The notes beneath the pieces are model-generated. The model was not told the DNA's origin, made no database searches, and was given only the letters and a program-made list of their open reading frames with translations. Shown here piece after piece: positions 45,189 to 53,512 of a stretch of DNA of 64,000 nt. Origin of the DNA: Planctomycetota bacterium (GTDB lineage Bacteria; Planctomycetota; MHYJ01; WSZJ01). Position 1 is the stretch's first letter. Each line of letters begins with the position of its first letter. The DNA lies in NCBI GenBank assembly GCA_009773755.1, contig WSZJ01000037.1, forward strand, positions 1-64,000. Direction: 5' to 3'. The position numbers and the translations under genes were made by a program.

Positions 45189-48044
45189 CTACCAGTCCAT
45201 CGTCCCCTTCCAGGCCCGTTCCGCCTCTTCAACAGGCACCACGCACACCGCCTTCGCGCTCTTCGTGAACCAGATGCCGCTTCGACCGGTGACTTCGCCG
45301 ACTCTTCGCGCGGGGAACTTCTCGAACAGCTTTGCGAACGCCGCCTCGCTGGTCTTTTCGACTTCGACGAGGAAGCGGGTGCAGGTCTCGCTGAACAGCA
45401 GCGCGTCGATGGTGAGCGGCACGGGCGTTGGCAGGGAATCGAGAGCGACTTCGCATCCGATGCCGCCAGCGAGCGCCATTTCAGCGGCGGCGACGGCGAG
45501 GCCGCCGTCGGAGAGGTCGTGGCACGACCGTACGAGACCTTGCGAAATGGCGGCGTGCATCGCTGCGAGGACATTCGGCGCTTCACGGATATCCGGCGTC
45601 GGGGACAGCATGCCGAGCCATCCGTGGAGTCTGTACCACTCGCCGCCGCCCATTTCCTCGCGGGTTTCGCCGACGATCCAGAGGGCGTTGCCGGCTTTCT
45701 TGAGGTCCATGGTCACGGCTCGGCGCACGTCGGGGACGATGGCGAGGGCGCTGATGAGAAGGCTCGGCGGTACGGCGATCGTCTCGCCGCCATGGGAGAA
45801 TTCGTTGTTGAGGGAGTCCTTGCCGCTGATGAACGGCGTGCGGTACGCCATCGCGCCGTCGCGGCAGCCCTGCGCGGCACGGACCAGCGATCCCAACCGG
45901 TCGGGCTTGGCGCAGTTGCCCCACGAGAAATTGTCGAGGATCGCGCACTGCTTCGGATCGCCTCCGACGGCAACGACATTCCGCAGAGCCTCGTCGATTG
46001 CCGCCAGCGCCATGCCGTGCGGGTCGATGTCGCCGTAGCGAGGGCACATTCCGCAGCCGATCGCGGCGCCGCGGTTCGAGCCGAAGACCGGACGGATCAC
46101 CGCGGCGTCCCCGGGGCCGGACTTCGGCCCCACGAAGGGCTTCACGACGAGCCGCCCCTGCACCTCGTGGTCGTACAACCTGACGATCCATTCCTTCGAC
46201 GCCACGTTCCACGACCCGAGCAGCTTCAGGACTTCCTTCCCCCAGTCCAGCTCTTTCGGCCGCGACGGCTCCGACAGCCGAGGCATCTTCCACTCGGCCT
46301 TGCGCGTCCACTGGGGGACTCCTTTGTGGAGGAAGTGCATCTCGAGATTGGCGACTTCGGTTTCATTGAAGAGCAGCCTGAGCCGTCCGGTGTCGGTGAA
46401 CTTGCCGATCGGCGTCGCTTCGACGTCCTCGCTCGCGAAAAGTCGCAGCATGTCGTCGAGTTTCTCCGGCGGGACCGCAAAGACCATGCGTTCCTGCGCT
46501 TCGCTGATCCAGATCTCGGTGTAAGTGAGGCCGTCGTACTTGAGCGGCACCTTCTCCAGGTGAACTTCCGCGCCGCACCTTTCCCCCATCTCGCCGACCG
46601 CGCTCGACAGCCCGCCGGCGCCGCAGTCCGTGACGCCCCGGTACATCCCTCTGTCGCGCGCCTGCAGCATCACGTCGAGCAGCCGCTTCTCCGTGATCGC
46701 GTTACCGATCTGGACAGCGCCGCCGCTCAGCGACTCGCTTTCGTGGGTCAGTTCGGCGCTCGAGAACGTCGCGCCGTGGATCCCGTCGCGTCCGGTGCGC
46801 CCGCCCGCGACGACGACGATGTCGCCGGGAAGCGATTCCTTTTCGACCATCGTGCGCGGGAGGAGGCCGACGTTGCCGGCGTAGACGAGCGGATTGCCGA
46901 GGTAGCGGTCGTCGAAGAGGACCGCGCCGTTGACCGTCGGGATTCCCATGCGGTTGCCGTAGTCCTTCACGCCCTGCACGACGCCCTTCAGGACTTTCTT
47001 CGGGTGCAGGACGCCCGGCGGAATCGACTCCGGGTTCGTGTCCGGCGGCGCGACGCAGAAGACGTCCGTGCTTGCGATCGGCTTCGCGCCGAGTCCGACC
47101 CCCATCGTGTCGCGCAGCACGCCGCCGATGCCGGTGCCGGCGCCGCCGTACGGTTCCAGCGCGCTCGGGTGGTTGTGCGTCTCGACCTTGAAGGTCAGCG
47201 CCCACTCGTCGTCGAACGCGATGACCCCCGCGTTGTCCTTGAAGACGCTGAGGCACCATGGCGCGTTGATGAACTCCGTCGCTTTGACGATGGTGCTCTT
47301 GAGCAGGTTGTCGATCTTCTCACTTCCGAATTCGATCACGCCCGTCAAGGTCTTGTGCTTGCAGTGCTCGCTCCAGGTCTGCGCGATCGTCTCCAGCTCG
47401 GCGTCGGTCGGGTCGCGTTTCTCGGACCGGAAGTGGTCGCGGATTGCCTGCATCTCGCGAAGCGTCAGCGACAACTGGCCGTCCTTGCTGATCTTCTCGA
47501 GGGCGGCGTCGTCGGCGTCGAGAAGTGGCACGACGATTTTCCTGAAGGGCGGGACGCGCGAGGCCGGGATTTCCTGAATCGTCCGGTCCTCGAACGCGAT
47601 TTCGTCGACGACGGCGTTCGCGAGCGCTTTGCCCGCCCATTGTTCCAGGCCGGGCGAAGCGTCGCCGGCGTAGAGGACCTTGCGTCCGGTGCGGACGGAT
47701 TTTGGGTGGAGGCCGAGGTCGCGAAGCGCTTTGAGGGAAGACTCCTCGACGGGGTCCATGACGCCGGGTTTGCGCGTAATGGTGATGGCGTTCCAGGCGC
47801 CCTCGAGTTTTTTGGAGACGGGTTCGCCGATGGTCCAGAAGTCGGTGACGGGATCTGCGAAGAGGTCGCGGGCCACGCGCTCGGCGGAAGCGCGGTCGAA
47901 TTCAGCCTGGATAAAGAAGACCCGAACAACACGAACATCCGTAAGTGATGAAAACCCGGCCTCTCGCGCATCGGCGAGGATCGACTTCCCCGCTGGATCG
48001 GCAAGCCCAGGCTTGATCGCCGTCTCAATCTGCCAGATATTCAT
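45189..48044 (-). CDS. purL: Phosphoribosylformylglycinamidine synthase, PurS-PurS-PurL fusion
   Basis: This purine enzyme makes FGAM from FGAR, glutamine and ATP. The 951-residue protein begins with two PurS-like halves (TAIKPGLADPAGKSILADA, about 1-90, and TRKPGVMDPVEESSLKALRDL, about 90-190). Two PurM-like halves then carry the catalytic His in TWSEHCKHKT, GGxGTG-type loops and GRDGIHGATFSS. There is no C-terminal glutaminase domain, so it needs a separate PurQ. The length is between small PurL (about 750) and the large proteobacterial PurL (about 1300). Confidence 0.94.
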   Translation of the reverse strand: MNIWQIETAIKPGLADPAGKSILADAREAGFSSLTDVRVVRVFFIQAEFDRASAERVARDLFADPVTDFWTIGEPVSKKLEGAWNAITITRKPGVMDPVEESSLKALRDLGLHPKSVRTGRKVLYAGDASPGLEQWAGKALANAVVDEIAFEDRTIQEIPASRVPPFRKIVVPLLDADDAALEKISKDGQLSLTLREMQAIRDHFRSEKRDPTDAELETIAQTWSEHCKHKTLTGVIEFGSEKIDNLLKSTIVKATEFINAPWCLSVFKDNAGVIAFDDEWALTFKVETHNHPSALEPYGGAGTGIGGVLRDTMGVGLGAKPIASTDVFCVAPPDTNPESIPPGVLHPKKVLKGVVQGVKDYGNRMGIPTVNGAVLFDDRYLGNPLVYAGNVGLLPRTMVEKESLPGDIVVVAGGRTGRDGIHGATFSSAELTHESESLSGGAVQIGNAITEKRLLDVMLQARDRGMYRGVTDCGAGGLSSAVGEMGERCGAEVHLEKVPLKYDGLTYTEIWISEAQERMVFAVPPEKLDDMLRLFASEDVEATPIGKFTDTGRLRLLFNETEVANLEMHFLHKGVPQWTRKAEWKMPRLSEPSRPKELDWGKEVLKLLGSWNVASKEWIVRLYDHEVQGRLVVKPFVGPKSGPGDAAVIRPVFGSNRGAAIGCGMCPRYGDIDPHGMALAAIDEALRNVVAVGGDPKQCAILDNFSWGNCAKPDRLGSLVRAAQGCRDGAMAYRTPFISGKDSLNNEFSHGGETIAVPPSLLISALAIVPDVRRAVTMDLKKAGNALWIVGETREEMGGGEWYRLHGWLGMLSPTPDIREAPNVLAAMHAAISQGLVRSCHDLSDGGLAVAAAEMALAGGIGCEVALDSLPTPVPLTIDALLFSETCTRFLVEVEKTSEAAFAKLFEKFPARRVGEVTGRSGIWFTKSAKAVCVVPVEEAERAWKGTMDW

Positions 48045-48226
48045 GGTGAGACCTTCTCTAAATCGTTATGTATTAACGTCTTACGACTGCGCACTTTCAA
48101 CCGCCCGCTGCCCCCGCCATCGTATCCCCTCCTCCCTACCCTACCACCTTTTTCTTTCTCTTGACCCCCCCGTACCCCGCCGCGATACCATCAACCTCTT
48201 CGCCCCCACCAAGAGGGACACCCCGG

Positions 48227-48403
48227 TTGGACGCCACGAGAGAGTTCGACAAAACTCTCAAGCAGATCGAAAAACGGATCGAGGAGCTCGAAGCCCTTTC
48301 GCGCTCCTGCCAGCTCGACGTCGCTTCAACGATCCAGGCCCTGCGCGTTCAGGTCGATGCCGTCCGCAAATCAGCGCACTCCCGACCCGGCATAGGAGAT
48401 TGA
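48227..48403 (+). CDS. Small coiled-coil protein similar to the N-terminus of AccA
   Basis: The 58-residue ORF, with TTG 48227 the likeliest start, reads MDATREFDKTLKQIEKRIEE and continues as a coiled coil. It aligns without gaps to the first 48 residues of AccA encoded directly after it, sharing about 16 of 45 positions including IEEL. It ends one base before the AccA start. It probably arose by duplication of that segment and may bind the carboxyltransferase subunits. Whether it is translated is not certain. Confidence 0.55.
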   Translation: MDATREFDKTLKQIEKRIEELEALSRSCQLDVASTIQALRVQVDAVRKSAHSRPGIGD

Positions 48404-48404
48404 C

Positions 48405-49502
48405 GTGGAAGATTTCCTCGAATTCGAGCAGCCGATCAAGGACGTCGAGAAGAAGATAGAGGAGCTGAAGAAATTCTCGGAGCAGATGGACGTCGATCTC
48501 TCGGGGTCGATTGAGGAGCTCCGGAAGCAGCTCGATCTGCTGAAGCGGGAGATCTACAACAAGCTGACGCCGTGGCAGCGCGTGCAGCTTGCGCGCAATC
48601 CGGGGCGGCCGGACACGATGGACATCATCGCGACCTTCGTGGAGAAGTTCCAGGAGCTCCACGGCGACCGGTTTTTCGGCGACGACCCGGCGATCGTCTG
48701 CGGCACCGGGATCATCGGCGGCCACAAGGTGATGTTCATCGGGCAGCGCAAAGGCAAGAACACGAAGGAGCGGCTGCGCTGCAATTTCGGCTCGCCGCAC
48801 CCCGAGGGGTATCGCAAGGCGCTTCGCAAGATGAAGCTCGCCGAAAAATTCCACCTCCCGGTCGTCTGCCTCATCAACACTCCGGGCGCCTACCCCGGCA
48901 TCGGCGCCGAGGAGCGCGGCCAGGCTCACGCGATTGCCGAGAACATCTTCGAGATGAGCCGCCTGCGCACCCCGATTCTCTGCCTCGTGATCGGCGAGGG
49001 CGGAAGCGGCGGAGCGCTCGGCATCGGCGTCGGCGACCGGCTGGCGATCATGGAAAACGCATACTTCAGCGTCATCTCGCCCGAAGGATGCGCGGCGATT
49101 CTCTGGAAGGACTCGGAGAAGGCGAATCGCGCGGCGGAGGTGCTGAAGCTCACGCCGAAAGATCTGAAGGGCCTCGGCATCTTCGACGACATCGTCCCCG
49201 AACCGCTAGGGGGCGCGCACACCAACCCGGCGGCCGCGATGGAAACGATCAAGGCGTATCTCACCAAGACACTGACCGAGCTGAAGGCGATCCCGATCGA
49301 CAAGCTCGTCGAAACGCGCTACCAGAAGTACCGCCACATCGGGATCTTCCTTGAGGACCAGCAGGCGAAAGTCGTGATGCTTCCCGGAAAGGGCGTCGTC
49401 GAGTCGGCGCTTCCGACGCCCGGCGAGATCGCGGCGGCGGAAATGGGCGAAGCACAGGCGGTCGAGGAAGAGGAAGACGTGAAGCCGGGGAAGGAAGATT
49501 AA
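48405..49502 (+). CDS. accA: Acetyl-CoA carboxylase carboxyltransferase subunit alpha
   Basis: With AccD it transfers carboxyl from biotin to acetyl-CoA to give malonyl-CoA. The 365-residue product has the N-terminal coiled coil, LARNPGRPDTMDII, GDRFFGDDPAIVCG, the INTPGAYPGIGAEERGQA loop and GEGGSGGALGIGVGD. GTG 48405 has ATAGGAG upstream. The last 35 residues are Glu-rich and extend beyond the E. coli protein. Confidence 0.95.
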   Translation: MEDFLEFEQPIKDVEKKIEELKKFSEQMDVDLSGSIEELRKQLDLLKREIYNKLTPWQRVQLARNPGRPDTMDIIATFVEKFQELHGDRFFGDDPAIVCGTGIIGGHKVMFIGQRKGKNTKERLRCNFGSPHPEGYRKALRKMKLAEKFHLPVVCLINTPGAYPGIGAEERGQAHAIAENIFEMSRLRTPILCLVIGEGGSGGALGIGVGDRLAIMENAYFSVISPEGCAAILWKDSEKANRAAEVLKLTPKDLKGLGIFDDIVPEPLGGAHTNPAAAMETIKAYLTKTLTELKAIPIDKLVETRYQKYRHIGIFLEDQQAKVVMLPGKGVVESALPTPGEIAAAEMGEAQAVEEEEDVKPGKED

Positions 49503-49590
49503 CGGCAGTCGGGAGTCGGGAGTCGGGAGTTGCGACCGGGCGCCTTGATCTCCGAACTCCCGTCTCCTGTCTCCCGACTTCCGAGTCCGT
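49503..49590. repeat. Palindrome with AGTCGGG tandem arms between convergent genes
   Basis: The left arm (49504-49533, GTCGGGA units) and the right arm (49554-49588) are approximate inverses. A related single arm lies at 54600-54622. It ends accA and the convergent HEAT-cyclophilin gene. Confidence 0.7.
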
Positions 49591-49598
49591 GACGACGG

Positions 49599-51611
49599 CT
49601 ATCGCTCAACGGACGCCTTCGCGATGCGGTCCCCGACCTCGATCGCGCGCACCACGTCCATGCCGCTCTCCAGCCGCGCGAATACCGTGTACCTGCCGTC
49701 GAGATGCGGCGCAGGCGCGCTCATGATGAACAACTGGCAACTGCCGGTGTCCTTGCCGGAGGTCGCCATCCCGACCGCGCCCGCGTCGAACGGCTCGCGC
49801 GACCACTCGTCTCGCACCGTGAATCCCGCGTCGCCCGTGCCGTCTCCCTTCGGGTCGCCGCCCTGGATGACGAAGTTCGGCACTACCCGGTGCCACGTTT
49901 TCCCGTCGTAGAAGCCGCTCCTCACGAGACGGACGAACGACGACGCCATCGCGGGCGCAGCGCCCGGCAGCATCCGGATCCGGATCACGCCGCGCGTCGT
50001 CTCCAGCTTCACGATCATCGAGAAGCCGATCTCCTCCAGCCTGGTCGGTTCAATCGCCGCGGGAGGCGGCGCCGGCGCCGCTTCCGCGGATTCGTTGCTC
50101 GCCTTCAGAGTTTTCACGGCCTGGGCTCTCACCGCCGGCACGTCGTCCTTCGTCGCCTCGAAGGCCAGCGACCGTCCGCGCTTCGCCTTCTCGAACCACA
50201 TCAGCACCGCCATCCGCGGGTCCACCATGTCCTTCCCGCCGCTGGCGCGGTACGCCTTCTCGAGCGCGGCGTCCCACGAGGCGTCCTCCTCCCTCCCCGC
50301 AAGCGCCCCCACGGCCGCTTCACGCACCCCCGCATCCGGGACGTCCAGCGCCGACTTCACGTAGCCGTCCCAGTCCGCGTGCAGCTGCGGGTGCCGCTTG
50401 TGGTGGTCCGCGATCTCGGCCATCAGCTGCACCTGGAGCGCCCTCTCGTTTCCGAGCATCACGCGTTCGAGTTCGCCGTGCGCCTTCGAGGTGCCGATCG
50501 CCACGAGCGCCCTAACGGCCGCCCGGCGCGACATCGCGTCCCCGGATTTCAGCGCGGTCATTGACTCGTCGAAAGCCTCCATCCCGTGCCTGAATGCCTT
50601 CGCCCACAGCGCCACCCCGCGTACCGTCACGCTCGGGTGCCGCAGCGCCGCCTTGATCGTGCCGGGCGTCGCTTCGCCGCGCATCCCGAGAATCTCGAGC
50701 GCCCGGGCGATCGTCACGGACTCGCCGCCCGACGCCGCCTTGTTCAACGCTTCGCTCACTTCCCCGCTCACGCACTTTTCCAGCGCATTCACGCCCTCCC
50801 AGGCCACCCGTGGATCCGAGTCTCCCGCCGAACGGATCAGCGTCTTTTCCGCGGCCCGGGTCTTCTTTTCCTGCTCGGGATCCACGATCCGGCCCAGCGC
50901 CCGCGTCGCGAACGCCCGCACCAGCGCCTCCTGGTCGACCGTCGCTGCTTCGATCTCCGCCCGGAGCGGCGAAGCGTCAACTCTCGAGAGTCCGCACGCT
51001 GTCCGCCAGCGGGCTGCGTCATCGGGGTCGTGGAGAAGCGGCTTGAGCGCGAGCACGGCGTCCTTCAGCTTCGATTTGTCCTCATCGCTTTCCGCCCTCG
51101 CCGCCATGCGTGCGACGGCCATCCCGAGCTCACCCCGGACGCGCGCACTCGCGTCCCGCGCCATGCCCGCCGCCAGCCCGAGGTCCCCGGGTCGGCCAAG
51201 GCGACTCAGCGCCTGGATCGCCAGCGCGCGCACCTCCGGCTCGGGGCTCTTCAGCGCCGGTCGAAGAGGCTCCGCAATCGCCGGGTCGCCGATCAGCCCG
51301 AGCGCGAAGGCCGCGTCCTCGACCACTTTTGTTTCGGGGTCGCGGAGAAGCGCCGCGACGGCACTGACGGATTTCGGGTCGCCGATGCGGCCGAGCGCGA
51401 GGAGCGCGCGGCGGCGGACGGTTTCGTTTTCGTGTGAAAGGAAGGGTTCGACAAGTGCGCCCGGCGCGCGTGTGTCCTCGAGGCGCTGGATGTCGGCGAT
51501 GTCCTGGGCGATGGTGCGCTCCGGTGGGTTTTCGTCGACGGGCTTTTCGGAAGAGCCGCAGCCGGCGGTGAGGATGGCGAGCGAGGCGAGGAGGGCGCGG
51601 GTTCGGTTCAT
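49599..51611 (-). CDS. HEAT-repeat lipoprotein with C-terminal cyclophilin-type peptidyl-prolyl isomerase
   Basis: A 670-residue lipoprotein (lipobox ILTAGC). HEAT repeats cover residues about 50-480. A cyclophilin domain follows at about 510-665 (TTRGVIRIRMLPGAAPAMASSFVRL, WHRVVPNFVIQGGDPKGDGTG). The catalytic pattern HRVVPxFxIQGGD is intact; the active-site Arg is present. Prolyl isomerases fused to HEAT arms probably fold or inspect envelope proteins. ATG 51611 is preferred to a start 36 nt upstream. Confidence 0.9.
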   Translation of the reverse strand: MNRTRALLASLAILTAGCGSSEKPVDENPPERTIAQDIADIQRLEDTRAPGALVEPFLSHENETVRRRALLALGRIGDPKSVSAVAALLRDPETKVVEDAAFALGLIGDPAIAEPLRPALKSPEPEVRALAIQALSRLGRPGDLGLAAGMARDASARVRGELGMAVARMAARAESDEDKSKLKDAVLALKPLLHDPDDAARWRTACGLSRVDASPLRAEIEAATVDQEALVRAFATRALGRIVDPEQEKKTRAAEKTLIRSAGDSDPRVAWEGVNALEKCVSGEVSEALNKAASGGESVTIARALEILGMRGEATPGTIKAALRHPSVTVRGVALWAKAFRHGMEAFDESMTALKSGDAMSRRAAVRALVAIGTSKAHGELERVMLGNERALQVQLMAEIADHHKRHPQLHADWDGYVKSALDVPDAGVREAAVGALAGREEDASWDAALEKAYRASGGKDMVDPRMAVLMWFEKAKRGRSLAFEATKDDVPAVRAQAVKTLKASNESAEAAPAPPPAAIEPTRLEEIGFSMIVKLETTRGVIRIRMLPGAAPAMASSFVRLVRSGFYDGKTWHRVVPNFVIQGGDPKGDGTGDAGFTVRDEWSREPFDAGAVGMATSGKDTGSCQLFIMSAPAPHLDGRYTVFARLESGMDVVRAIEVGDRIAKASVER

Positions 51612-51673
51612 GTCCGGAGAGTACAAAAGCGTGCGCCCGCCGGGCACGGATTAGGAACCGCCGGAAGTGCTTG

Positions 51674-51793: not shown

Positions 51794-53512
51794 TCAGGCG
51801 ACGCACGCCGGACCGGAGCAATCGCCCTTCGCCATCGCCTGCCCCGCGCGGCAACCGTCGCGGTAGACGGTGATTCCCTTGCAGCCGGCCTCCCAGGCCG
51901 CGCGGAATGCCTCCGCCACCTGCGGCCGCGTCGCCTCTTTCGGGAAATTCACCGTCTTCGAAACGGCGCTGTCGACATGCCGCTGGAACGCCGCCTGCAT
52001 GCGGACGTGCCAGGACGGCGCGATGTCCGCGGCCGTTGCGAACGCGCGCCGGATCCGCTCGGGGACCGCTTCGCAGCCGCGCACGCCGCCCGTCTTCTTC
52101 ACGTGCGCCCACACCTCCGGCCGGTCGAACCCGCCTTCGCGCGCCAGCCGCGCGAACTCCGGGTGCGCTTCCGGCAGGACTTCCCCGTCCAGCACGTGCC
52201 GGTTGAAGGCGAGGGCGAAGAGCGGCTCGATGCCGCCGCTGGTGCCGGCGAGGATCGAGAGCGTGCCGGTCGGGGCCACGGTCGAGACGGTCGCGTTGCG
52301 GATCGGATAGCCGGAACCGCGCGCGTGGATCGACTCGGGGTAGTTCGGGAACGGGCCGCGCTCGCGGGCGAGCTGCTGAGAAGCCGCGCGCGCCGCGCGG
52401 GAAAAAGCGGCCATCGTGCGGTCGGCGAGCGCGATCGCCTCTTCCGAGTCGTACGGCACGCCCAGCAGGACAAGCGCGTCCGCCCAGCCCATGATGCCGA
52501 GGCCGATTTTGCGGTTGGCGCGCGTCAGCCGCTCAATCGCCGGCAACGGATACCGGTTGCGCTCGAGGACGTCGTCGAGGAAGCGGACCGAATCGGCGAC
52601 GACCTGTTCGAGGCGGGCGAGATCGAAGCCGGAGGGTTTGACGAAGCGCGCGAGGTTGATGGAGCCGAGCGTGCAGGCCTCGTTCGGAAGAAGCGGCTGC
52701 TCCCCACACGGATTAGTCGCCTCGATCGCGCCGAGGCCGGGAGTCGGGTTGTCGCGCTCGATGCGGTCGCGGAAGAGGATGCCGGGCTCGCCGGAGTCGT
52801 GGGCTTCCTCGACGAGCGCTTCGAAGAGCTTGTCGGCGCGAATGTGTTTCGCGACAAGGCGGGTGCGCGGGCTGACGAGCGCCCACGGCTCGCCGGCCGC
52901 GGCCTTGCGCATGAAGTCGTCTGTGACGAGAACGGAGACGTTGAAGTTCGACAGCTCGCCGCGGTCGCGCTTGGCGCGCACGAATTCCTCGACGTCCGGA
53001 TGGTCGGCCGCCAGCACCGCCATGTTCGCGCCGCGCCGGAACCCGCCCTGGTTGATCGCGTTCGTCGCCGCGTTGAACACGCGGATGAACGACACCGGCC
53101 CGCTCGCCGCGCCCTGCGACGTCGCGACGCGGTCGCCTTTCGGCCGCAGCCGCGAAAACGAAAACCCGGTCCCGCCGCCGGACTTGTGGATGAGCGCGGA
53201 CGCCCGCAGCGTGCCGAAAATCGAATCGATCGAATCTTCGACCGGCAGAACAAAGCACGCCGCGAGCTGCTGCAACTCGCGCCCCGCGTTCATCAGCGTC
53301 GGCGAATTCGGCAGGAAATCCCCTTCCATCATCAACTCGTGGAAGCGGCGCACCCACGGACGCGGCGAGTTGCCGAACGCCGCTTCCGCAGAAGCAATGT
53401 CGGTCGCGACGCGCAGGAAGAGCGCCTCGGGGGATTCGGCGGCGCGGCCGTTGGAATCCTTGAGGAGGTAGCGTTTTTCGAGAACGGCGCGGGCGTTGGC
53501 GGTCAGGGGCAT
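51794..53512 (-). CDS. nrdJ: Adenosylcobalamin-dependent (class II) ribonucleotide reductase
   Basis: The enzyme makes deoxyribonucleotides for DNA using coenzyme B12. In the 572-residue product C86 and the NPCGEQ block (N267, C269, E271) with C280 form the catalytic and redox set. ACFVLPVEDS and GGGTGFSFSRLRP are class II signatures. The C-terminal redox pair is present as CSGPAC. Start ATG 53512 has GGAGAAA upstream. No cobalamin riboswitch was recognised in the 138 nt before it. Confidence 0.93.
   Translation of the reverse strand: MPLTANARAVLEKRYLLKDSNGRAAESPEALFLRVATDIASAEAAFGNSPRPWVRRFHELMMEGDFLPNSPTLMNAGRELQQLAACFVLPVEDSIDSIFGTLRASALIHKSGGGTGFSFSRLRPKGDRVATSQGAASGPVSFIRVFNAATNAINQGGFRRGANMAVLAADHPDVEEFVRAKRDRGELSNFNVSVLVTDDFMRKAAAGEPWALVSPRTRLVAKHIRADKLFEALVEEAHDSGEPGILFRDRIERDNPTPGLGAIEATNPCGEQPLLPNEACTLGSINLARFVKPSGFDLARLEQVVADSVRFLDDVLERNRYPLPAIERLTRANRKIGLGIMGWADALVLLGVPYDSEEAIALADRTMAAFSRAARAASQQLARERGPFPNYPESIHARGSGYPIRNATVSTVAPTGTLSILAGTSGGIEPLFALAFNRHVLDGEVLPEAHPEFARLAREGGFDRPEVWAHVKKTGGVRGCEAVPERIRRAFATAADIAPSWHVRMQAAFQRHVDSAVSKTVNFPKEATRPQVAEAFRAAWEAGCKGITVYRDGCRAGQAMAKGDCSGPACVA

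Follow-up and report, generated by a model that had tools for sequence, protein, structure and literature searches.

A small gene between purL and accA in a Planctomycetota genus encodes a free-standing paralogue of the N-terminal hairpin of AccA, a candidate subunit mimic of acetyl-CoA carboxylase

Organization of the accA locus

The window analysed here is the whole 64,000-nucleotide stretch; it belongs to the 5.78-Mb genome (302 contigs) of an uncultured member of the Planctomycetota, whose nearest named relatives are the MAGs SJ466 and NC_groundwater_670. As listed in Table 1, a small ORF lies between purL and accA, and the product of the latter is the acetyl-CoA carboxylase carboxyltransferase alpha subunit (PRK05724/TIGR00513, above the NCBIfam cut-off). 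The original prediction had described a 58-residue ORF before accA that matches AccA without gaps and shares about 16 of 45 positions with it, and both the coordinates and the alignment were confirmed.

Table 1. Features at and around accA in the window.
Feature	Position	Strand	Remarks
purL	45189-48044	minus	left neighbour of the small ORF and accA
promoter-like block TTTTCTTTCTCTTGACC	48150-48166	plus	17 bases; −35-like TTGACC; identical in four aligned genomes
putative Shine-Dalgarno of the small ORF	48212-48218	plus	AGAGGGA; read from the sequence
small gene	48227-48403	plus	58 aa; TTG start 48227, TGA stop 48401-48403; paralogue of the AccA N-terminal hairpin
putative Shine-Dalgarno of accA	48394-48398	plus	AGGAG; within the final codons of the small ORF
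accA	48405-49502	plus	GTG 48405 to TAA 49502; 365 aa; Pfam ACCA E 7.4e-141
C-terminal extension of AccA	49357-49502		residues ~318-365
large inverted repeat	49504-49589		gggagtcgggagtc... / ...ctcctgtctcccgact
HEAT-like/cyclophilin-type gene	49599-51647	minus	682 aa
ribonucleotide reductase gene	51794-53512	minus	572 aa

The small ORF is found in three of five genomes of one genus, namely that of the window (G000), G001 and G004, the AccA proteins of the latter two being 89% and 77% identical to that of the window. G003 has the locus and no small ORF, accA starting directly behind the conserved block, and G002 lacks the whole locus, with neither accA nor purL. In G001 and G004 the frame of the small ORF differs from that of accA; the leader and the start signals are similar. 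Counterparts of the Shine-Dalgarno sequence of the small ORF occur at the same place before CCCGG-TTG/GTG (CAGGGA in G001, CGGGAG in G004), and AGGAGG precedes accA in G001. A longer version of the ORF starting at 48161 (80 aa) was discarded, since in G001 an in-frame stop ahead of the TTG removes the extension; there the same TTG is the sole usable start between this stop and the conserved core. The TTTTCTTTCTCTTGACC block lies upstream in all four genus members that have the locus, including G003. A sigma-70 consensus scan of the small ORF/accA leader gave zero sites, so that this block can be called only a putative promoter.

The proximity of the two genes raises the question of whether the small ORF is a translational leader, in which its translation is what matters, ribosomes ending at 48403 re-initiating at 48405, and the peptide is secondary. 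The single nucleotide between its stop and the GTG of accA in the window, the accA Shine-Dalgarno sequence within it and its weak TTG start would all fit this idea, as would the regulation of accA translation in E. coli by AccD binding to the accA mRNA (PMC3896788). However, the distance between the two genes is 1 nt in the window, 16 nt in G001 and 37 nt in G004, with no fixed short spacing or overlap, and an Rfam search of the accA leader returned no element. Because the spacing varies in this way and the amino-acid sequence is under selection (see below), a pure coupling leader is disfavoured and we consider it improbable. The different frames of the neighbouring copies could also reflect a sequencing or assembly error that splits a longer AccA in which the N-terminus is doubled; this is refuted by three independent assemblies in which the two ORFs have separate frames, their own stop and start, and different spacings.

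Relationship of the small protein to the AccA N-terminal hairpin

Aligned without gaps with AccA residues 5-52, the small protein has 16 identities and 33 positives, the best 45-residue window containing 16 identities. With 300 shuffles of the small ORF, the best such window had a mean of 9.2 and a maximum of 13 identities. Among 24,736 Pfam models ACCA (PF03255) was the top match (E 4.7e-4, below the gathering score), and the accA models of NCBIfam came first as well, with E 9e-4 for the ORF of the window and 1.3e-3 for its nearest orthologue; these Pfam and NCBIfam matches lie below the curated whole-protein cut-offs. Since helical, charged sequences look alike, we used an AccA N-terminal profile built from 104 AccA N-termini, with the whole genus left out, together with controls that keep the hydrophobic/charge pattern (3,000 within-residue-class permutations and 3,000 class-preserving resamplings). 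The proteins of the window and of G001 match this profile significantly (34.2 and 35.6 bits, respectively), compared with maxima of 28.7 and 29.0 for the permutations and of 28.3 and 26.8 for the resamplings. The G004 protein is marginally AccA-like (16.2 bits); 5-7 of 3,000 pattern-preserving controls reach that score, and its assignment therefore depends mainly on its orthology to the other two. Twelve columns are invariant among the three small proteins, which form a clade of their own on a long branch (98% support).

A profile of the three small proteins, searched in all six frames of 23 class genomes, recovered at E <= 0.01 nothing other than the small genes themselves and the N-termini of AccA. 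A chance similarity between coiled coils is ruled out by the pattern-preserving controls and by this search. Taken together, the alignment, the profile controls, the six-frame search and the Pfam/NCBIfam ranking make homology to the AccA N-terminal hairpin, and not to any coiled coil, well supported. The catalytic crotonase-fold domain of AccA (residues ~57-313) is absent from the small ORF, which stops after the hairpin; the small protein is a homologue of one AccA domain and not an AccA.

For the small protein, AlphaFold2 predicted two helices (2-27 and 32-50, counted from residue 2, mean pLDDT 83.5) that form the hairpin also seen in the AccA model (H6-28/H33-52), where it occupies residues 5-52. 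The model of the small protein is not independent evidence, as its alignment holds AccA rows. The structure models fit an antiparallel helical hairpin better than the "coiled coil" originally predicted. The top PDB match in Foldseek was AccA in the AccD-AccA model 9a4k_B (TM 0.72, rmsd 1.1), with an E of 1.3 that is not significant, such hairpins being common. Like the AccA hairpin (PF03255; PRK05724/TIGR00513), the small protein has two helices with the core residues F7, E15, I18, L21 and L39. In contrast to AccA, it stands alone, with 56-58 residues and without the carboxyltransferase fold. None of the three small proteins retains P10, which is almost invariant in AccA, or the Y-x-x-LTPWQ motif at the exit of helix 2, so the interface may have changed. 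Their conserved motif, REFDKxLKQIEKRIEEL, contains residues that they have in common and that do not occur in AccA. The NCBIfam model NF041504 begins at AccA residue 57 and some AccA families are free of the hairpin, which makes the latter a separable module. Predicted tryptic peptides of the small protein include IEELEALSR, SCQLDVASTIQALR and VQVDAVR.

Selection on the small gene and its distribution

Between G000 and G001, whose synonymous divergence is about 0.8, dN/dS was 0.29 in the frame of the small ORF, compared with 1.05 and 1.86 in the other two frames. The 42 nucleotide differences change 20 amino acids, whereas random placement would change 27.3±2.2; only 1 of 2,000 simulated placements was as low, and 842 of them gained a stop. 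Helix 1 is nearly fixed (residues 5-22, pN 0.02, pS 0.39), whereas the constraint on helix 2 is loose (pN 0.30, pS 0.58). If the small ORF were a decaying, functionless partial duplicate, one could understand that its dN/dS is about 4-fold higher than that of the AccA N-terminus (0.07), that one congener lacks it and that the G004 copy is very divergent. Yet no stop or frameshift has appeared in three genomes, even at the synonymous divergence separating G000 from G001, and the selected substitution pattern and the near fixation of helix 1 also speak against decay, which we regard as quite improbable. The small ORF is, on this codon-level evidence, a real gene preserved by selection. A lack of conservation or a dN/dS near one had been named as what would count against the original prediction; instead, the ORF occurs at the same place in two congeners and its ratio is well below one. 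Its homology, position and selective constraint all support a "stand-alone duplicate" of the N-terminal part of AccA.

Outside the genus, the six-frame search with the small-protein profile found no small ORF in the 18 other genomes of the class. None was seen upstream of about 110 other accA loci, some of which were duplicated or had a short upstream region, nor was a further one present among the matches listed for 246 genomes of the phylum. A second match, in G243, was discarded as a truncated ordinary AccA cut by the contig end.

In a tree of PurL and AccA, G003 is the first lineage to split off (90% support); one alternative placement is not rejected. The simplest history is a single gain after the split from G003, and loss of the small gene in G003 is possible. 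The start TTGGAC belongs to accA in G003 and to the small gene in G000 and G001, at the same place behind TTTTCTTTCTCTTGACC; from this shared site, the small gene seems to have taken over the start and leader that originally served accA. A tree in which the small proteins group with AccA of their own genus was only 0.6 lnL units worse over 47 columns, and with a signal limited to these columns the phylogeny does not set the date of the duplication. A partial paralogue of accA, arising by in-place duplication of its 5' end or from an older copy, would have become a separate gene between promoter and accA.

Putative action on acetyl-CoA carboxylase

Acetyl-CoA carboxylase, a drug target, catalyses the committed step of fatty-acid synthesis, which is under tight control; the assembly of the bacterial four-part enzyme is still under study. 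The genome of the window encodes all four subunits, with accD on one contig and accB and accC together on another, and its AccB has the thumb segment. A published AlphaFold2 model of the E. coli enzyme has the BCCP thumb in contact with the N-terminus of AccA (PMC10863985). A hairpin on its own could thus act on that contact or on the one between AccA and AccD, either by competing for it or by bracing it. We infer that the small protein, a helical hairpin of 56-58 residues copying the AccA N-terminal domain without the catalytic fold, would be made with AccA from one mRNA and would act as a subunit mimic filling the contact site of the AccA hairpin, either on AccD/AccA or where the BCCP thumb docks. 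In this way it would tune acetyl-CoA carboxylase at the level of assembly or turnover, serving either as a brake or to assist assembly. Action on carboxyltransferase assembly, as originally predicted, is plausible, and from the published model interference with BCCP docking appears at least as likely. To the explanation as a whole, a partial accA paralogue tuning acetyl-CoA carboxylase as a subunit mimic, we give an even chance. A more specific version, in which an AccA-hairpin microprotein carried on the accA transcript controls carboxyltransferase assembly or BCCP-thumb docking, and hence malonyl-CoA in proportion to AccA synthesis, is put forward tentatively. The G003 lineage lives without the small gene, which counts against this explanation.

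The hairpin might instead have been exapted, the copy of the AccA N-terminus now serving another complex and standing at accA only by birth. Such a different partner is a serious rival because the most conserved stretch, REFDKxLKQIEKRIEEL, is distinct in character from AccA and the parental P10 is lost; the relaxation of helix 2 and the separate, long-branched clade of the small proteins point the same way. However, the gene stays beside accA, behind the apparent accA promoter, in congeners whose AccA is 77-89% identical, and we hold exaptation to be unlikely.

MicroProteins are small proteins that originate from a single interaction domain of a larger subunit and act on the parent complex; they are best documented in plants and animals, mostly for transcription factors. 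The small protein differs in being bacterial and encoded beside its parent gene, and any dominant action would be putative. It shares with the plant BADC proteins, which are 25-30% identical to their parent, the state of a non-catalytic subunit paralogue of acetyl-CoA carboxylase (PMC11926652), here partial and under selection. BADC was described first as an inhibitor and later as an assembly glue (PMC11926652). Unlike the small protein, BADC copies BCCP and not AccA, is a larger plastid protein and has been studied experimentally. By analogy the small protein would work like a BADC or a microprotein, yet it is not a BADC in the strict sense of a BCCP-type biotinyl domain without the biotinylation motif, being derived from AccA. 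The plant proteins CTI1-3 contain coiled coils; they attenuate the enzyme and bind a coiled-coil region of alpha-CT that has no catalytic role (PMC7712654). They differ in being membrane proteins and not paralogues of alpha-CT, and their binding site is the C-terminal extension of the plant subunit. For YqhY of Bacillus subtilis (Asp23 family), a role in controlling and inhibiting acetyl-CoA carboxylase has been proposed (PMC5437119); this protein belongs to an unrelated family and is no subunit mimic. In the open-access papers searched we found no description of a stand-alone copy of the AccA hairpin. If the proposed role is true, the small protein would be, to our knowledge, the first bacterial subunit-mimic regulator of acetyl-CoA carboxylase, paralleling plant BADC with another subunit. 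A natural stand-alone AccA hairpin would also serve as a ready probe of the role of the hairpin module.

In this genus AccA itself ends in an acidic C-terminal extension that is predicted to be disordered (pLDDT below 50). Matches reach residues 362-364 in G001, G003 and G004, and mostly end near residues 320-330 in order- and class-level relatives. The large inverted repeat that follows separates accA from a convergent gene and is perhaps a bidirectional terminator; in Rfam it gave only sub-threshold microRNA look-alikes. The product of the convergent gene has HEAT-like repeats and a C-terminal cyclophilin-type peptidylprolyl isomerase domain, and the next gene encodes a short B12-dependent ribonucleotide reductase of the NrdJ type, above the TIGR02504 cut-off.
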